64,000 nt of DNA from Catellicoccus marimammalium M35/04/3 (lineage in GTDB: Bacteria; Bacillota; Bacilli; Lactobacillales; Catellicoccaceae), in NCBI RefSeq assembly GCF_000313915.1, contig NZ_AMYT01000017.1, positions 62,001-126,000 on the forward strand, in the 5' to 3' direction. The notes beneath the pieces are model-generated. The model had not been told where the DNA came from and did no database searches. It was given only the letters and a program-made list of their open reading frames with translations. The translations under genes and the position numbers were made by a program. Below are positions 46,109 to 59,710 of the stretch, piece after piece. The first letter of the stretch is position 1, and each line of letters opens with the position of its first letter.

Positions 46109-46147
46109 TACGAATTTATCATGAAAAAGAAAAATTAATTTCATAAT

Positions 46148-46212
46148 AATTGTAGTCCATTATTTACGGTAATGGGTAGAGACTGATGACCTTATTACAT
46201 CTTTATACAATT
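46148..46212 (-). ncRNA. Purine (guanine-class) riboswitch aptamer
   Basis: The P1 helix pairs AATTGTA with TACAATT. P2 is GATG/CATC. J2/3 carries AGTCTCTACC (consensus GUUUCUACC), P3 is CATTA/TAATG with loop CCGTAAA, and the 3' junction reads GGACTAC. The pyrimidine that pairs with the ligand is C (GACTA), which marks the guanine/hypoxanthine class rather than adenine. It lies upstream of a purine permease and its terminator. The whole fits the known Firmicute riboswitch. Confidence 0.9.
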
Positions 46213-46225
46213 AATTTTTTCTTGT

Positions 46226-46253
46226 ATTATATCACGATCTCAATTGTTGTCAA
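46226..46253 (-). promoter_or_regulatory. Promoter of the riboswitch-permease unit
   Basis: On the minus strand TTGACA (46248-46253) and TATAAT (46226-46231) are separated by 16 bases, 14 bases before the aptamer. It abuts the stop codon of the ABC-F gene. Confidence 0.85.
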
Positions 46254-51860: not shown

Positions 51861-51930
51861 TGTTCCCTCCACTTCTATATTCATCCTTATTGTAAGACTT
51901 TGCTAAAGAATACACAATTGTTTTGAGTAA

Positions 51931-51985
51931 AAACCCCTCCCTATTTTGTAGGGAGAAGTTGGAATAAAATTTAGAAAGTACAAAA
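51931..51985. repeat. Copy A of a repeat: terminator hairpin plus degenerate CRISPR repeat
   Basis: Contains a CCCCTCCCTA/TAGGGAG hairpin (terminator of the GW gene on the minus strand) followed by AATTTAGAAAGTACAAAAA. The latter matches the CRISPR repeat core (AAATCTAGAAAGTACAAGAA) with two changes in 18. It lies immediately after the stop codon of the GW gene and is about 85% identical to copy B at 53211-53268. Confidence 0.75.
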
Positions 51986-51986
51986 A

Positions 51987-53144
51987 TTATTGAATTTGGA
52001 AAGATAATGCCTGCATCGCTTTTTGATACTCTTTATAATGCGGTACTGTTGCATATTGTTTCAATGCAACCTCTGCCTTTTTGATTGCTTCTTTCACTTG
52101 CTCTTTTCGTGATTCTGGAGCTGATTCAACATATTTTTTTGCGTATTGGATCATATTTTCATCACCAGAGGTATTTAATCTCCATTGATTTAAAGCATTT
52201 CCCAATGTAAAATTCCAATAATATCCTGCAGTTGCTGAAGCGTGTTTATCTTTCAACACTTTTTGCGTGCTATGAACAAAAGAAATCACTTGTTTTGTGT
52301 CTTTTTTATTCAAGCTCTCCGCTGGAATTTTACTAGAAATTTCTTGATAATCATGAACCAATTTTTCTAATTCTTTTTTCTGTTTTGAAGAAATTTTACT
52401 AGATAAATCTTTTCCTTGTACATACCCTAGCCAATGATTTTCATCAGAAACAGAATAATAAGATTTTTGTTGATTTACACGGTAAATGCAACGAACAAAA
52501 ACAGTTTGATCTTTTTTCAAAGTCTGATTTTTGTGATTTCCGTATAGGTCATTATTACATTGTGCCTTGTTAACTGCTACATAAATCGGATAATCGGCTG
52601 CTTTTTGATACTCTTTTTCTACTGATACTTTTTCTTTTTTTAATAAATGAATATCTTTAGAAGCAATATATCCTTTCCATTTCATATTCTCTTTAGCATC
52701 GTTTTGATATATAGAGTAATAAACTTGTCCATTTCCTAATCGATAAGCATATTTCACTTTATAGATGCTATCTTTTTTAATTGTTAATTTTTTATTTGTT
52801 TGGTTTAAATCTTTCCAACTCGTTGTATTTTTAGAGGCAACCACAAATTGATTTTCTTTTTGCGCTTTTAATGTGGTTACTTGAGTAGGTAGAATATAAC
52901 CTTTAAAGTTTCCTTCAGAAATTAGGTAGTAAGATTGTCCTTTTAGTTTCTTGTTCCCTACTAGTTGATAAACTTTTTCTTTTTTCAGTTTTACCTTTTT
53001 GGTTAATTTTTGATTTGTGTAGCAGACTGCTTGATCTTTTGTAACTGTCACTAAAGAATTGCTACTAGCTTCTGCAGTTGAAAAGCAAGATAAAGCTACT
53101 CCTCCCATTAAAATACTCATCATTATATTTTTTGTATTCTTCAT
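51987..53144 (-). CDS. Secreted GW-module protein at the CRISPR trailer end
   Basis: 385 residues: signal peptide (to about AEA at residue 26), three GW/SH3-like modules (about 27-260, ending FKGYI, WKGYI and WLGYV) and a C-terminal helical region (about 265-385, Lys/Ala-rich) that may form a bundle. It belongs to the same family as the proteins at 39373, 42050 and 32256, here without an enzyme domain. It starts with AAAGGGG upstream, only ~70 bases beyond the CRISPR terminator, in the same direction as the cas genes. It is bracketed by copies A and B of the terminator/repeat segment. Confidence 0.8.
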   Translation of the reverse strand: MKNTKNIMMSILMGGVALSCFSTAEASSNSLVTVTKDQAVCYTNQKLTKKVKLKKEKVYQLVGNKKLKGQSYYLISEGNFKGYILPTQVTTLKAQKENQFVVASKNTTSWKDLNQTNKKLTIKKDSIYKVKYAYRLGNGQVYYSIYQNDAKENMKWKGYIASKDIHLLKKEKVSVEKEYQKAADYPIYVAVNKAQCNNDLYGNHKNQTLKKDQTVFVRCIYRVNQQKSYYSVSDENHWLGYVQGKDLSSKISSKQKKELEKLVHDYQEISSKIPAESLNKKDTKQVISFVHSTQKVLKDKHASATAGYYWNFTLGNALNQWRLNTSGDENMIQYAKKYVESAPESRKEQVKEAIKKAEVALKQYATVPHYKEYQKAMQALSFQIQ

Positions 53145-53210
53145 TTTAAGACCCCTTTCTCAAGGTATACTACCACAAGAAAATCTTAAAATCCACCTTA
53201 GTTTTAATAA

Positions 53211-53268
53211 AAAACCTCTCCTTTTTTTGTAGGGAGAGGTTGGAATGAAATCTAGAAAGTATAAGAAC
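53211..53268. repeat. Copy B of the repeat: array terminator plus decayed CRISPR repeat
   Basis: Contains ACCTCTCC/GGAGAGGT with T6 on the minus strand, the terminator of the CRISPR transcript. Next to it is a damaged CRISPR repeat (ATGAAATCTAGAAAGTATAAGAAC at 53245-53268 with one base lost and one changed). It is closely similar to copy A past the GW gene. Confidence 0.75.
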
Positions 53269-53860
53269 AAGTATGTAATTTTGAATAATTATCTACTCTT
53301 TACCAATATGAAAATCTAGAAAGTACAAGAACGAGTCTTTACTTCAATAAAGAACATTCTGCGTTTTACTAATATGAAAATCTAGAAAGTACAAGAACAA
53401 CAGAAAGTTACTGACAACGAAAACAACAGTTTTACTAATATGAAAATCTAGAAAGTACAAGAACGAGTCTTTACTTCAATAAAGAACATTCTGCGTTTTA
53501 CTAATATGAAAATCTAGAAAGTACAAGAACAGTACTTAACTAATCTGTTCGGTAAATGCTGTTTTACTAATATGAAAATCTAGAAAGTACAAGAACTGAA
53601 ATGCCGAATCTTCTTGAAAAAGATTTGTTTTACTAATATGAAAATCTAGAAAGTACAAGAACATAGAGATTTTTTCATAACATCATGGTCATGTTTTACT
53701 AATATGAAAATCTAGAAAGTACAAGAACCTATTTTTAGATTTGATAATACCTGTAATTGTTTTACTAATATGAAAATCTAGAAAGTACAAGAACTGTGAC
53801 CTTTGTCAGTCATCGACTCTTTTGGTTTTACTAATATGAAAATCTAGAAAGTACAAGAAC
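53245..53860 (-). CRISPR. Type II-A CRISPR array, eight intact 36-bp repeats plus two degenerate ones
   Basis: In the transcribed (minus) direction the repeat begins GTTCTTGTACTTTCTAGATT and ends TATTAGTAAAAC, similar to the Streptococcus CRISPR1 repeat. Repeats lie at 53825-53860 (leader end), 53759-53794, 53693-53728, 53627-53662, 53561-53596, 53495-53530, 53429-53464 and 53363-53398 (identical). A degenerate one is at 53297-53332 (three changes) and a decayed one at 53245-53268. Spacers between intact repeats are 30 bases; the last gap is 28. Spacers 6 (53465-53494) and 8 (53333-53362) are identical. No spacer matched another part of the window by eye. Confidence 0.97.
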
Positions 53861-53913: not shown

Positions 53914-54840
53914 CTATAATAATAATTCTTTTACTGTATTATAGAATAACATATTTTCTGTTTCTTCATCAATCGCAATTGCTAATAACGTATTAATTAT
54001 CTCTGCATATAAAACAGAATCTTCTTCCGTATATTCCAAAGGATAATGGAAAAGAATCGTTTCTTTCATTATCTCAAAAGAAGGTAATTGTATATGATCC
54101 ACTCCAATATATAAAATTTCTTCTAAATCATTAGGATATATTTTTTCTTTTTCTTGAAAATAAAAGAGGATTAACTGCGGATATTTTTTAGCTAAATGTT
54201 GTAATCCTTCTATACATTCTTTCATTGCTTCTTGGGATAAAAATTGAGTTAGGTTTTTTAAAATAACAACTACATACTCATTATTTTGTCGTAAATAGGT
54301 CTCTAACATTTGTAGAAGAAGTAAGACTAATGACTGTGAATCTAAACTATAAAGAGGATAATTTTGATGTGTACACAGGTCCACGTGTTTCATAATTTCT
54401 TGATTCAAATCCCAATGAATTTGTAATTGTAAATCTTTACTTAACTCATCATCCATCCATATATTTTCTATTTCTAATAATGTATTGCGACATTCTTCTA
54501 TATATCTTTGTACCACAAAGCTCTCTATATAATTTTTAATATAGTGAAAGGATAGTGTTCCCTTCTTTTGACTTTCTAATTGAGTTAAAAAATCTTCCTT
54601 CCTCTCTAAAAAAAGAAATAGCGCTTGTTTAGACTTTATCTCTTTTTCATCAACACAAAAAATAGGAAAACTTTCACCAAAATAAGCTTCTTCTTCTAAA
54701 CTCAATGATTTATTTTCCGCTAGACGTAAAAAAAGTTGATAGAAATTATTTTTCCCTTCTTGATCTGGACCTAGAAAATAATGGATGCATTGTTTTTCAA
54801 TGTATAATTCTTCATTTCGATATCTCAAATATAATTCCAT
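53914..54840 (-). CDS. csn2: CRISPR adaptation protein Csn2 (long form)
   Basis: 308 residues, the length of the long Csn2 subtype found with S. thermophilus CRISPR1-like systems, rather than the ~220-residue form of S. pyogenes. The sequence is acidic and helical with an alpha/beta core (YVVVILKNLTQFLSQEAMKECIEGL, QLILFYF). Csn2 forms a ring that binds DNA ends during spacer acquisition with Cas1-Cas2 and Cas9. It lies two bases after cas2 and just before the array. Confidence 0.85.
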   Translation of the reverse strand: MELYLRYRNEELYIEKQCIHYFLGPDQEGKNNFYQLFLRLAENKSLSLEEEAYFGESFPIFCVDEKEIKSKQALFLFLERKEDFLTQLESQKKGTLSFHYIKNYIESFVVQRYIEECRNTLLEIENIWMDDELSKDLQLQIHWDLNQEIMKHVDLCTHQNYPLYSLDSQSLVLLLLQMLETYLRQNNEYVVVILKNLTQFLSQEAMKECIEGLQHLAKKYPQLILFYFQEKEKIYPNDLEEILYIGVDHIQLPSFEIMKETILFHYPLEYTEEDSVLYAEIINTLLAIAIDEETENMLFYNTVKELLL

Positions 54841-54842
54841 AA

Positions 54843-55166
54843 TTAAATCACCACAAGCTTTTTATTTCCAACTAATTCTTCTTGTCTACTACTCGTTCCT
54901 AATAAAAATTGCATATCATTATATTGCCGTTCAGTCACATAAAGCAGGCGTACTTCTCCTTGTTGTGGAATTTTTCTTTGTAAAATGGCTTGGTATTTTT
55001 TCATTGATTGTCGATTGGGCACTGGTCGTTGATAAACTGAATACTGCATCATTGTAAAACCATTCTCTAGTAAACATTTACGAAATTCTCGATAATATTT
55101 TTGTTCTCTTTTTGTTTCCATAGGTAAATCAAACATACATAAAATTCTCATTCGTTCATAACTCAC
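54843..55166 (-). CDS. cas2: CRISPR-associated endonuclease Cas2
   Basis: A 107-residue Cas2: RILCMFDLPMETKREQKYYREFRK holds the conserved Asp of the beta-1 strand. It forms the dimeric core of the Cas1-Cas2 integrase. Start: GTG at 55164-55166 with GGAGG eight bases upstream; the ATG five codons later is less well placed. It begins 3 bases after cas1. Confidence 0.95.
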   Translation of the reverse strand: MSYERMRILCMFDLPMETKREQKYYREFRKCLLENGFTMMQYSVYQRPVPNRQSMKKYQAILQRKIPQQGEVRLLYVTERQYNDMQFLLGTSSRQEELVGNKKLVVI

Positions 55167-55169
55167 TTT

Positions 55170-56084
55170 CTATTCCTCCAGCGAAATAAAATCATCTAAT
55201 GATATTTTTATTAGTTGTTTTTCATCTCTTAATTCGAGTGATTTTACAAAACTAGCTACATATTTTTGCATCACTTCATGTAAAGTACAAATTTTACTTT
55301 TATAACGCATCGGTTGATTTAATAAATCAATAATCGCTAAACGATGTTCATAATTTAAATACCTTACATCTTCACGAACAATTTCTTTTTGTACATAATA
55401 ATCTACAAATGGACGAAAAGGTTCAATAAGATCATCTACTAAATTAAACTCGTTATATTCATTACAATGATGAATGCCTAAACAAGGAATTAATCCATTG
55501 GCAATTACTAATCGAGCTAAAGCTGTACGTAAAATTGTATAGCCAAAATTTAGCCCAGCGTTAATTCCATTTTCATCTTCTCTCGTAAAATTTTTATAAA
55601 ATAAAGCATTAAAATATAGTTTAGCTACAATAGCTTCTTTATTCGTTCGATCCCCTAAAGCAATTTCAGATTTATGTTTTTCAATTGTAGAAAGTACATC
55701 TTCTTCTGCAATATCCCAATATTGTAAGTGTTGATATTGATTATCTAACTTCTGTTGAATAATTTCAGACCACATAATCTCTTGAAATAATTTTGGTACT
55801 GCGATTTGCATTTGATGTCGTTTTGCCATGCGATGATATTTGTATAGGGGTAAATATATTCCAATCGGTTCATATTTTATATTACATGTAATTAATGCAA
55901 TATTATACTCACTTAATTTTGCTAATAAGCGAGTCGTAATCGTTGTTCGCTGTCCCTCTAAAATGATAATAGATATATCTTGTAAGGGAATATAAATCGA
56001 TTCTCCATTTTTAACCACTTCAATATTTGTTAATTTTAATGAGAGTCGATTTCCCTCTTTGATATGAACAATTCTCCAGCTCAT
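55170..56084 (-). CDS. cas1: CRISPR-associated endonuclease Cas1
   Basis: A 304-residue type II Cas1 that integrates new spacers. Metal-binding residues are recognisable: Glu in the NAGLNFGYTILR region, His in CLGIHHCNEYNEF and Asp in NLVDDLIEPFRP. A good AAAGGAG precedes the ATG. It follows the tracrRNA gene and starts the cas1-cas2-csn2-array run. Confidence 0.96.
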   Translation of the reverse strand: MSWRIVHIKEGNRLSLKLTNIEVVKNGESIYIPLQDISIIILEGQRTTITTRLLAKLSEYNIALITCNIKYEPIGIYLPLYKYHRMAKRHQMQIAVPKLFQEIMWSEIIQQKLDNQYQHLQYWDIAEEDVLSTIEKHKSEIALGDRTNKEAIVAKLYFNALFYKNFTREDENGINAGLNFGYTILRTALARLVIANGLIPCLGIHHCNEYNEFNLVDDLIEPFRPFVDYYVQKEIVREDVRYLNYEHRLAIIDLLNQPMRYKSKICTLHEVMQKYVASFVKSLELRDEKQLIKISLDDFISLEE

Positions 56085-56164
56085 GTTTATCTCCTTTTAT
56101 TGATTATTTGAAATATTTTTCACAAACAATATACAAAAGAATTTTACATTGAGCAAGAAAAAAC

Positions 56165-56267
56165 AAAAAAACCTCACTCAAAGAGTGAGGTGAATCCGAC
56201 ATAAAGTCTTATTCTTGTAGATTTTCTAGATTTTCATATTAGTAAAAAGCGTGGAATTCATTCCACG
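56165..56267 (-). ncRNA. tracrRNA
   Basis: On the minus strand: a short hairpin (GCGTGGAA/TTCCACGC, loop TGAA, 56248-56267), then the anti-repeat TTTTTACTAATATGAAAATC at 56227-56247 continuing to 56216. It pairs with most of the crRNA repeat. Then comes AAGAATAAGACTTTATGTCGG, the nexus-like region resembling the CRISPR1 tracrRNA, and a terminator hairpin CCTCACTC/GAGTGAGG with T7 ending near 56165. It lies between cas9 and cas1. The exact 5' end is inferred from the promoter. Confidence 0.9.
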
Positions 56268-56272
56268 CTCTT

Positions 56273-56301
56273 ATTATAAATAATTATTTATTTGTCGTCA
56301 A
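56273..56301 (-). promoter_or_regulatory. tracrRNA promoter nested in the cas9 3' end
   Basis: TTGACG (56296-56301) and TATAAT (56273-56278) with exactly 17 bases between, on the minus strand. The -35 lies inside the last cas9 codons (Ile-Asp-Asp-Lys), and the spacer contains the cas9 stop codon. Transcription would start about 56265-56268, at the first base of the hairpin that precedes the anti-repeat. Confidence 0.8.
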
Positions 56302-59300
56302 TCATTTTTTTCGGATTTTCACTTTCTTTTTCTACAAAATAGGTATTTCCTAAAATATCTGTATTTCCTTTTAATAAAGTCCATCCTTTTTTTACAAATA
56401 CTGTTTGCATTTGTTTACGACATTTTCCATATACTGGAACTACTTCTCCATCTTCAAATTGATATTTTTCTACCGGTTTAATTTCAGCGTTATTTTTTCT
56501 ATTTGGCATACTTCGTGATAAGTAACGCACAACAATGGACTCACCATTTTCATCAATCACTTTAACCATCGAGTTTTTATAAAGACTGAAGACAAATTCA
56601 TCGTGCTCAGACAATTTATTATTAGCTTTAATTTCCTCATAACGAGATTTTGGAATTCCATAATGTCCATTCACAAATTTACCATCATTTTGATCAATTC
56701 CCACCAATGTATATTCACCAGTATCTTGGTTACGATATACGTCTGTGCGATATGGTTTCAACGATTGTAATACTACTTGACGATTTTTTGTTGAATATTT
56801 ATGACTAATATCAATTTTACGATTTAATTTGCTATCATAATATTTCAATTGTTTGATTACTGGACCATTATTTTTCTTCGCATACTTTGTTACTGGGCCA
56901 TTTTCTTCACGATATAATGCAAAAGGACTCACCTTTTTCTTCTTTCCTTTTTCATCTTCAATATACTCTGGATATTGCGCTAAAATTTCCTCTAATTTTT
57001 CAAAAGTTTGTGGGTCATGATGATACATTAAGAAAGATTCTTTATTTTTATCATAACGTTTTTTAAAGCGAACATACTCATCGTAATTATAAATATCTTT
57101 AATCTTCCCAATAACATAAGTTTCTTCTTTTTTATCTTTTCCAAGCTGAGCTTGTCTTGTGCCATAAATCGTATCATCCGCTACTTTTCGATTCATCTTT
57201 TGATCTACTTGATGCGAGAACTTAATTTTTAAATTACGTTCTCTTGTTTGTGGGCCACTAACCTCTTCTTTTGCAAAAGAATTACGTTGTAAAATTTGTA
57301 CGTCTTGAATAAAGCTTTCAGGAAGACGCATTTTCACCTTGAATTCTTTTTCAGGCATTGTTTCTTCTTCTGATACTTCTACTTCAACAACTTCTTCATT
57401 CGCTGATTTTGGTAACCATTCTTTTCTTTCTTTGAAAAATTCGATATTTGGAATGACTGCCATTAAAGAAGCATCAATCGCATGATGATGGAAAGTTTCT
57501 CGAGTTTTATCTAATTTCACTTTCTTACGTAAAATATTAGTCATCGCGCCACGAACAACAGAAACATTCATCGACAATTGATTTTCTTTTTTATATTGTT
57601 GTAATGCATTTAGGACAATACGAGCAGTATAAGAAGTATCTACTAAATTACGATTGATGAATCGTTTTCTTGTTTCAATATCATTGCTATAAATTTCAGC
57701 TAATAATAGTTCTCGTTTTTCTTTAGAGAAACGTTTATTTTTTCCAACTAATTCTTTCAATTCATGGAAGCTTAAGTGACCATCTGTATGAGTAGTCATA
57801 TATTCAAATGGAGTTTGATTGGATTTTTGTGAATTTAGTTGTTGACGAACTAAAACTTTATTGCATAATCGATCATCAAAAGAAATACTAATCGGAATGA
57901 TATGATCTACTTCATATCCTCCTTTATTTTGAAGTAAATCAGATAATGGAATTTCTTGACCCGAATAAACACATTTTCCTTCTTGCTCATACCAAAGCAT
58001 TAACTTCAAATAAAGACCTTTTGTTTTCAATAATTTTTCTTCTAATGCTTCTTCTGATAATCCACTTTGTGCTTGCGCTTCTTTTAAAATTTCTTTTTTG
58101 CGTTTCGCATTATTATCATTGATTTTTTTAATTTTTCGTTTTTGTTCATCTTCATTTGTTTCACGTGGCAATTCTACAATCACATTTTGAATATTTGGGT
58201 ATTTTTCTTGAATCGCTGTAAATACTTTTAACATCTCACAAGTTGATTTTCGTACTACTGGATTATAAAGATTTTCTCGCAATTCTGCATAATTAAAATG
58301 ATGGTTCTCATCTAGATAACTTGCTCGATTTTGAATAAATCCTCTCTCACATAAAATTGTACTTTGTTCTTTTGAAGTCTCCAATAATTCTGGAATAAAT
58401 TCTTTCATCAGTTTCAAAGAAAAGCGATGCCATTTATGATTCGATGTCGCAACAAAGGCTGTATGATTTTTCACTAAAACTTCAATGACCTCTGGGGTTA
58501 AAATATCATATTGATTTGTAATCTTATTCAATTGCTTGCGAATTTCCCCAGGTTCAGTATTTAATGTCATCATTGTCGCTAATTCATCTAACAATTCTTC
58601 AGAAAAATCTGCTATTTGAATTCCTTCTTTTTCTAGCATATTTTTCTGTTTTCGATAATAAGCTAAAGAATGCAAATCTGGTTTATCTTTTTCATCTTTT
58701 CGATATCCAGAAATCTCTTCTTTCGGTGCTTTTGTCACTTTAGAAATCAGTTTTAACATTCCACCCGATAGACGAGAAGTATTTTTTAATTCTGTAATAA
58801 TTTCTTCTTTTTGTGCTTTCGTTAAATGATGATCTTCTGTCGTTGGAATTCGTAAATTGTTTAAATCATTCAATAAATTAAAAATCTGTGCTGTATATGA
58901 ACTTCCTGCTGCACGATACTCTTCAGGATAAAATTTATCTTTTCCAATTAAAATTTCAAAAAGATTATCTAATGTTTCTCCATTTTCACGATAAATACCA
59001 TAATCTGTTCTTGATTTTTCGTTCCCTGGACCTACAAAATATTCACGTTTTCGAGTCACAAAAGAGATAATTTTTTCAATAAACACATCATCAATTTCTG
59101 GATGATATTTCTTTTGTGTCTCCAAAATTCGTTCTACTTCTTCTACATAATTTTTAGTTGGGAAAATATTGATGAGTAATCCATCTTCTGTTTGGATTTG
59201 TCCTCTGACTTGTCCATATTTTTGTAGACGATCATATTGAATTTCACCCACCGTTTTTGTTTTTAATAAACGACGATTATAATCTAATCCTGATTGGAAA

Positions 59301-59710
59301 GATTGGGTATTAGTTCCTTCTTCATCTGTAACATCTTCTAATTCATAACTGATCCCTCGATGTTTAACGATATTTAAAAGTGCAATGCTTAATTCTTCTT
59401 TAGATACTTTTTCATTTAATGCTCGCACTCGAATTTCATAGGGGTTCCATTCATCTTTAGGTTCTATATCTTTTAATTGGAAAACATTTTCTAAATATTT
59501 CTTTGCTTCTTGAATTCTTAATTTGCGTCTACGGAATAAACGACGACCTTGACGCTGATTACGTCGATTTACATTTTCATCTGCATCTGAACCAGAAAAT
59601 AAACGAACACCAGATTCAAGAATTTGATTCGTTTCTGCATTAATGACAGACCAACCAGCAGAAGAAATCCCTACGTCTAGTCCTACGTTGACTTTAGTCA
59701 TATTTTTCAT
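56288..59710 (-). CDS. cas9: CRISPR-associated endonuclease Cas9 (type II-A, short form)
   Basis: 1140 residues, the size class of S. thermophilus CRISPR1 Cas9. RuvC-I has Asp12 in VGLDVGISSAGW. The Arg-rich bridge helix lies at about 49-72 (NRRNQRQGRRLFRRRKLR). RuvC-II has Glu513 in VIVELPRE. HNH has Asp602-His603 in VDHIIPISISFDD. RuvC-III has His743 and Asp746 in HHHAIDAS. All catalytic residues are present, so double-strand cutting is expected. The C-terminal ~300 residues form the WED/PAM-interacting part; the PAM cannot be read from sequence alone. AAGGAG precedes the ATG. Confidence 0.98.
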   Translation of the reverse strand: MKNMTKVNVGLDVGISSAGWSVINAETNQILESGVRLFSGSDADENVNRRNQRQGRRLFRRRKLRIQEAKKYLENVFQLKDIEPKDEWNPYEIRVRALNEKVSKEELSIALLNIVKHRGISYELEDVTDEEGTNTQSFQSGLDYNRRLLKTKTVGEIQYDRLQKYGQVRGQIQTEDGLLINIFPTKNYVEEVERILETQKKYHPEIDDVFIEKIISFVTRKREYFVGPGNEKSRTDYGIYRENGETLDNLFEILIGKDKFYPEEYRAAGSSYTAQIFNLLNDLNNLRIPTTEDHHLTKAQKEEIITELKNTSRLSGGMLKLISKVTKAPKEEISGYRKDEKDKPDLHSLAYYRKQKNMLEKEGIQIADFSEELLDELATMMTLNTEPGEIRKQLNKITNQYDILTPEVIEVLVKNHTAFVATSNHKWHRFSLKLMKEFIPELLETSKEQSTILCERGFIQNRASYLDENHHFNYAELRENLYNPVVRKSTCEMLKVFTAIQEKYPNIQNVIVELPRETNEDEQKRKIKKINDNNAKRKKEILKEAQAQSGLSEEALEEKLLKTKGLYLKLMLWYEQEGKCVYSGQEIPLSDLLQNKGGYEVDHIIPISISFDDRLCNKVLVRQQLNSQKSNQTPFEYMTTHTDGHLSFHELKELVGKNKRFSKEKRELLLAEIYSNDIETRKRFINRNLVDTSYTARIVLNALQQYKKENQLSMNVSVVRGAMTNILRKKVKLDKTRETFHHHAIDASLMAVIPNIEFFKERKEWLPKSANEEVVEVEVSEEETMPEKEFKVKMRLPESFIQDVQILQRNSFAKEEVSGPQTRERNLKIKFSHQVDQKMNRKVADDTIYGTRQAQLGKDKKEETYVIGKIKDIYNYDEYVRFKKRYDKNKESFLMYHHDPQTFEKLEEILAQYPEYIEDEKGKKKKVSPFALYREENGPVTKYAKKNNGPVIKQLKYYDSKLNRKIDISHKYSTKNRQVVLQSLKPYRTDVYRNQDTGEYTLVGIDQNDGKFVNGHYGIPKSRYEEIKANNKLSEHDEFVFSLYKNSMVKVIDENGESIVVRYLSRSMPNRKNNAEIKPVEKYQFEDGEVVPVYGKCRKQMQTVFVKKGWTLLKGNTDILGNTYFVEKESENPKKMIDDK

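Follow-up and report, generated by a model that had tools for sequence, protein, structure and literature searches.

What is the function of the hairpin that separates the tracrRNA promoter from the antirepeat in the short interval between cas9 and cas1? We addressed this question for a stretch of bacterial DNA 64 kb in length (hereafter, the window), in which the minus strand carries cas9, a tracrRNA gene, cas1, cas2, csn2 and a CRISPR array. The cas9 gene (56288–59710) encodes an S. thermophilus CRISPR1 Cas9-like protein of 1,140 amino acids; its closest solved structure is the S. thermophilus CRISPR1 enzyme (phmmer, 6.2e-264 to 6rj9, S. thermophilus 1 Cas9), and both Cas9 comparison and a tree place it in the St1 Cas9 family. 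Downstream lie a type II cas1 (55170–56084), cas2 (54843–55166) and the long form of csn2 of the St subfamily (53914–54840; PF16813, 1.2e-10), followed by the array (53250–53860), which has the repeat GTTCTTGTACTTTCTAGATTTTCATATTAGTAAAAC and a leader ending in ATTTAAG, one base off ATTTGAG. Because its Cas9 is nearest to the St CRISPR1 enzyme and its Csn2 belongs to the St subfamily, we assign the system, on its sequence, to type II-A, CRISPR1-like. Several other features of the window are recorded here for completeness. The array contains a duplicated spacer (53299–53531), with the repeat–spacer units 53299–53399 and 53431–53531 sharing 99% identity across 101 nt. At 51909–51986 and 53190–53267 lie the copies of a 78-nt direct repeat (81%), which includes a CRISPR repeat in truncated form together with a hairpin resembling a terminator; the 385-amino-acid open reading frame between these copies (51987–53144) has no confident family match. 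Farther away, a purine riboswitch (46133–46253, minus strand) has a perfect 12/12 promoter (TTGACA-16-TATAAT) just upstream.

The tracrRNA promoter begins inside the end of cas9. Its −35 box, TTGACG (56296–56301), overlaps the final cas9 codons ATT GAC GAC; the 17-base spacer (56295–56279) includes the cas9 stop codon TAA (56290–56288); and the −10 box is TATAAT (56273–56278), an arrangement that an earlier note on this DNA had described and that we confirmed in full on the minus strand. In a promoter scan, this site (11/12 matches) ranked first among 29 promoter-like sites in 7 kb, and only 5 sites with at least 11/12 matches occur on both strands of the 64-kb window. Such nesting is common in relatives: the −35 box lies inside the cas9 open reading frame in 23 of 50 loci, window included, which supports the proposal of a tracrRNA promoter overlapping the cas9 end. 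The spacing in relatives agrees with the assigned −10 box, and its position predicts a transcription start at the G at 56268 or 56266.

Transcribed from this start, the RNA would consist of a hairpin, an antirepeat, a nexus and a terminator, in that order. The hairpin, GCGUGGAA-UGAA-UUCCACGC (56249–56268; as DNA, GCGTGGAA-TGAA-TTCCACGC, read from 56268 to 56249), is followed by a T5 tract (56244–56248) that overlaps the start of the antirepeat, as the earlier note had also read correctly. Block 1 of the antirepeat (56223–56247) is complementary to the CRISPR repeat at 25 of 25 positions, and block 2, TACAAGAAT (56211–56219), pairs with GTTCTTGTA at the 5′ end of the repeat. Next come the nexus AAGACTTTATGTCG (56197–56210), of the form GAC-TTTAT-GTC, and an intrinsic terminator, ACCTCACTC-TTT-GAGTGAGGT-T7 (56165–56191), with a score of d = +47 in our own implementation of the d'Aubenton-Carafa method. 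The gene thus has an antirepeat complementary to the array's repeat, a nexus and a Rho-independent terminator, as a tracrRNA should. In folding, the hairpin region lies 6.1 standard deviations below shuffled sequences (0 of 200 shuffles as good), and the predicted tracrRNA also folds below its shuffles (z −6.2); the comparative support set out below is far stronger than these promoter and folding chance statistics. Between the tracrRNA terminator and cas1, about 80 nt (56085–56164) leave room for a promoter in the window; this gap is too short for one in many relatives, and cas1–cas2–csn2 there should consequently depend on read-through of the tracrRNA terminator.

We compared about 90 related systems, drawing relatives from whole genomes and from 80 named loci, and examined the interval from cas9 to cas1. 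There, a tracrRNA nexus is present in 70 loci, the window among them, and in 49 of the 70 the antirepeat is preceded by a hairpin whose loop is GACG, including loci of Enterococcus, Companilactobacillus, streptococci, Listeria, Carnobacterium, Vagococcus and Aerococcaceae, among others. The window hairpin is its positional counterpart with UGAA in place of GACG. The earlier note had missed the GACG loop of the conserved form. In 43 of 50 loci the loop begins 12–13 nt past the −10 box, the figure for the window being 12 nt; the stem therefore begins where transcription should begin, in the window at the predicted start. The distance between hairpin and antirepeat varies from about 0 to 31 nt. 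Fixed with respect to the promoter and variable with respect to the antirepeat, the hairpin belongs to the 5′ end of the tracrRNA.

Blind to the motif, a count of all tetraloops on stems of at least five Watson–Crick pairs in the cas9–nexus stretch returned GACG in 45 loci from 16 groups, against 0.03 expected in shuffles; any other loop occurred in at most 2 loci, and in shuffles any loop reached at most 3. Across 27 distinct sequences, 94% of stem cells were paired and 65 double changes were counted, compared with 18 in shuffles; these sequences were chosen for a GACG loop with at least four pairs, with the window added, which partly guarantees pairs 1–4 but neither pairs 5–7 nor the variety of pair types. 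Double changes fell at all seven of seven stem pairs, and when the pairing was slid the signal collapsed, with no slid register coming close. Consistent with these results, an out-of-sample set of 12 loci from a distant branch (36–37% Cas9 identity; 9 new, 3 already known as L029–L031) carried the GACG hairpin in all 12, and the loop lay 12–13 nt from the −10 box in all 11 measurable loci. The suggestion that the hairpin forms the 5′ end of the tracrRNA therefore gains support both from the 43 of 50 loci and from these 11 loci of an independent branch. We consider it probable that the window element comprises the promoter and 5′-terminal stem-loop of a type II-A CRISPR1-like tracrRNA, and that the stem-loop folds and protects the 5′ end of that RNA.

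Some further observations bear on how widely the hairpin and its host loci are distributed. Three Bacillaceae (L105, L107 and L108), in which the tracrRNA lies upstream of cas9, retain a GACG hairpin adjoining the antirepeat. Lachnospiraceae tracrRNAs do not have the 5′ GACG hairpin; there, GACG is the loop of the 3′ terminator, in 11 loci (9 by a strict stem criterion). In eight loci (L062, L063, L066, L078, L079, L083, L084 and L093), the 5′ end of the tracrRNA bears a tandem pair of GACG-loop hairpins. Stops interrupt the cas9 reading frame in L049, L043 and L106, which may mean that some of the loci are in decay. One contig assigned to Prevotella by binning (L060) has a Cas9 of the Liquorilactobacillus/Lactococcus branch, by transfer or misbinning. 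No tracrRNA family of Rfam matched, a single Yersinia sRNA match far below the cut-off being due to chance; phage records gave no match to the element, and plasmid Cas9 matches were distant.

The earlier note had assigned the hairpin two further roles, the first as a terminator for cas9. If the hairpin and its T5 tract were mainly an intrinsic terminator of the cas9 mRNA, its position at the tracrRNA start would be a by-product of gene packing. The window gives this idea some footing, because the T5 tract behind the GC-rich stem renders the hairpin weakly positive as a terminator (d = +9.4) and read-through RNA could form 12 pairs; a minus-strand terminator scan, for its part, did not list this hairpin. 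The relatives' hairpins, however, are kept without any such property: 0 of 49 score positive (median −47). Their true tracrRNA terminators are positive in 44 of 49 cases (median +27). Given the lack of positive scores and the retention of the hairpin in the three Bacillaceae loci with the tracrRNA upstream of cas9, the conserved hairpin cannot be explained as a cas9 terminator, and stem covariation and the fixed distance to the tracrRNA −10 box also speak against it. We thus regard cas9 termination as an unlikely main function. Its claim to generality falls, and what stands is a possible local effect, in that the window hairpin may terminate part of the cas9 read-through at T5.

The second role was that of an attenuator, whereby a share of tracrRNA transcripts would end at T5, about 25 nt from the start, and so limit full-length tracrRNA. 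The T5 tract behind a GC-rich stem in the window would allow this, but the tract is specific to the lineage and is not conserved in relatives, and an alternative fold would need upstream RNA, none of which is expected from a predicted start at the hairpin itself. Moreover, as part of the antirepeat the T tract pairs with AAAA near the repeat end, which gives it another reason to exist. Attenuation is, in our judgement, very unlikely. From these sequence comparisons, neither termination of cas9 nor attenuation appears to be the conserved function; either would be at most a recent extra in the window.

The GACG hairpin is not confined to the tracrRNA but recurs in the leaders of the CRISPR arrays. 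Within 110 nt before the array, counting stems with at least three Watson–Crick pairs, GACG hairpins were found in 37 of 61 loci from 13 groups (shuffles, 0.3; maximum for any loop, 13), an upper figure because some of them, near −65, could be no more than −35 boxes (TTGACG). Of the GACG words in leaders, 38 of 55 lie in stems; eleven control words reached 17% at most (1 of 6), and 4 of 208 overall. In Enterococcus and many streptococci, the hairpin immediately precedes the leader end ATTTGAG, and in Companilactobacillus, Vagococcus and Aerococcaceae it sits in the 3′ coding end of csn2, where GACG is always read as Glu-Thr-Ser (GAG ACG TC) and the flanking bases and codons mostly preserve pairing. 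Loci with the csn2-embedded form, at −73 to −97 from the array, include L035, L036, L038, L039, L041, L045, L046 and L049, as well as L067, L076, L078, L079, L081, L083, L084 and L093. No locus has a leader GACG hairpin unless its tracrRNA carries one too (37 with and 18 without, against 0 and 5; Fisher p = 0.006, with relatedness ignored). In the distant II-A branch, a TATAAT box stands about 10 nt ahead of the first repeat (leader ends of L114, L115, L118 and L120–L123), so that the pre-crRNA should have almost no leader RNA; the leader hairpin is absent there.

Three candidate explanations for the motif were tried and rejected. It does not behave as a general host RNA-binding motif: among about 1,500 strong tetraloop hairpins that lie outside tracrRNAs and leaders in the DNA flanking the loci, a hand tally gave about 7 with GACG, a background frequency near 1 in 256. 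Nor does the loop have a CGUC partner with which to pair, CGTC being present in 0 of 45 distinct repeats and 2 of 70 tracrRNA bodies, and in leaders almost solely as the second half of GACGTC. A conserved role in marking the boundary of the repeat duplex fails on the hairpin–antirepeat distance of 0–31 nt.

The same data bear on readings in which the hairpin acts as DNA or as a guide. A repressor of the tracrRNA promoter might bind the inverted repeat after the −10 box as its operator, and the repeat does overlap the start region at a fixed distance from the promoter; but its arms vary in sequence yet stay complementary, its GACG centre is asymmetric and recurs in the sense orientation, as befits an RNA more than a dimeric DNA binder, and in Lachnospiraceae the motif is located in the 3′ terminator, which together make an operator very improbable. 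That the upstream part mimics the repeat and guides Cas9 to a cas promoter, as a natural single-guide RNA like S. pyogenes tracr-L, is extremely improbable: RNAs of this kind are known from other II-A systems (PMC11417352) and three Lachnospiraceae loci have a repeat mimic of 11–14 nt after the −10 box, but the window sequence between the cas9 stop and the antirepeat matches the 3′ half of the antirepeat by pairing over just 6 nt, and no similarly strong second promoter lies just upstream. The mimics of those loci (L095, L094 and L089; Lachnospiraceae and Eubacterium) are complementary to the 3′ half of their own antirepeats and sit just after the −10 box, for example GTTTTAGTAGATTT against AGATCTACTAAAAC, as though such an RNA might fold back on itself in the manner of a spacerless guide.

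The reading that we favour, a 5′-terminal stem-loop of the tracrRNA, suggests the following model. RNA polymerase would start at about 56268–56266, and the primary tracrRNA would open with the hairpin, which, judging from this anatomy, most likely folds the 5′ end away from the antirepeat and from 5′-end decay. In its ancestral form, the stem would present its GACG tetraloop to an RNA binder encoded in the CRISPR system, with Cas9 the most plausible one, and this binder would recognize the leader RNA through its GACG hairpin as well. That the motif has no CGUC partner and is not general in hosts may point to a reader encoded by the CRISPR locus itself. Cas9, which is known to bind these RNAs, would be the first candidate. 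The variable placement of the motif, at the 5′ end, in the 3′ terminator or in the leader, would fit a trans-acting reader better than the geometry of RNase III cleavage. We therefore raise, tentatively and at somewhat less than even confidence, the idea that the GACG hairpin is a recognition tag common to the tracrRNA and leader RNA of many II-A systems. A protein of the CRISPR system, for instance Cas9, would read the tag so as to join the two RNAs, mark primary transcripts or regulate the system, and the window lineage would have lost it from both RNAs.

In the Cas9 tree, the window and L044 (Candidatus Paralactobacillus gallistercoris) are nested inside the GACG clade (99, starred), from which it follows that the UGAA loop is derived; GACG thus appears to be the ancestral loop. 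L044, the nearest relative of the window, has merely a weak, G-U-rich hairpin, and the window leader has no GACG hairpin, so the lineage appears to have lost the motif from both the tracrRNA and the leader. Staphylococcus tracrRNAs likewise have a hairpin before the antirepeat without GACG, and their leaders have no GACG hairpin. Because the conserved loop is absent from the window, conservation of the motif cannot vouch for function there; with the stem kept, the loop changed and no leader copy, only a structural role at the 5′ end can remain, perhaps with weak termination of cas9 read-through as an extra. The terminator and attenuator reading of the window is thus corrected to that of a tracrRNA 5′ hairpin with a derived loop.

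To our knowledge, descriptions of tracrRNAs start at the antirepeat and ignore the part 5′ of it. That part is among the best conserved structural features of these RNAs, with a position fixed by the start, a covarying stem, a nearly invariant GACG loop and a recurrence in the leader. If a Cas protein does read GACG, the hairpin would represent a missing step in the making, pairing or regulation of II-A guide RNAs. In the part of the literature that we covered, we met no account of this hairpin for the tracrRNA or for the leader RNA, although a prior one is possible, and a search with the St1-type hairpin sequence returned no paper.

A tracrRNA between cas9 and cas1 is known in CRISPR1-type systems, and the window shares with the S. 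thermophilus CRISPR1 type its gene order, long St Csn2, Cas9 family, antirepeat, nexus and terminator. It differs in its UGAA rather than GACG loop, in the T5 tract right after the stem, in its repeat and antirepeat, and in a leader that ends in ATTTAAG rather than ATTTGAG. Certain streptococci with what is presumably the CRISPR1 repeat carry the 5′ hairpin in the same place as the window. In S. pyogenes, tracr-L and tracr-S (PMC11417352) have a dedicated promoter and extend 5′ beyond the antirepeat, as does the window tracrRNA; unlike in tracr-L, the extension in the window is a short hairpin, and no repeat mimic (6 nt at the longest) or guide-like stretch was found in it. In II-A arrays, a hairpin formed by leader and repeat is reported to suppress extraneous crRNA (Liao et al. 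2022, as cited in PMC12080349). Going by that secondary account, the likeness lies in a hairpin just upstream of the first repeat, which in several relatives of the window is capped by a GACG loop; the difference is that what is conserved in relatives is the GACG loop as such, which recurs in the tracrRNA, whereas the window leader is without it. A survey of 167 II-A loci (PMC5382924) defined ATTTGAG as the Group 1 leader motif from alignments of the last 20 leader bases, in a text that mentions neither GACG nor a hairpin. The loci with a GACG leader hairpin agree with Group 1, their leaders mostly ending in ATTTGAG.
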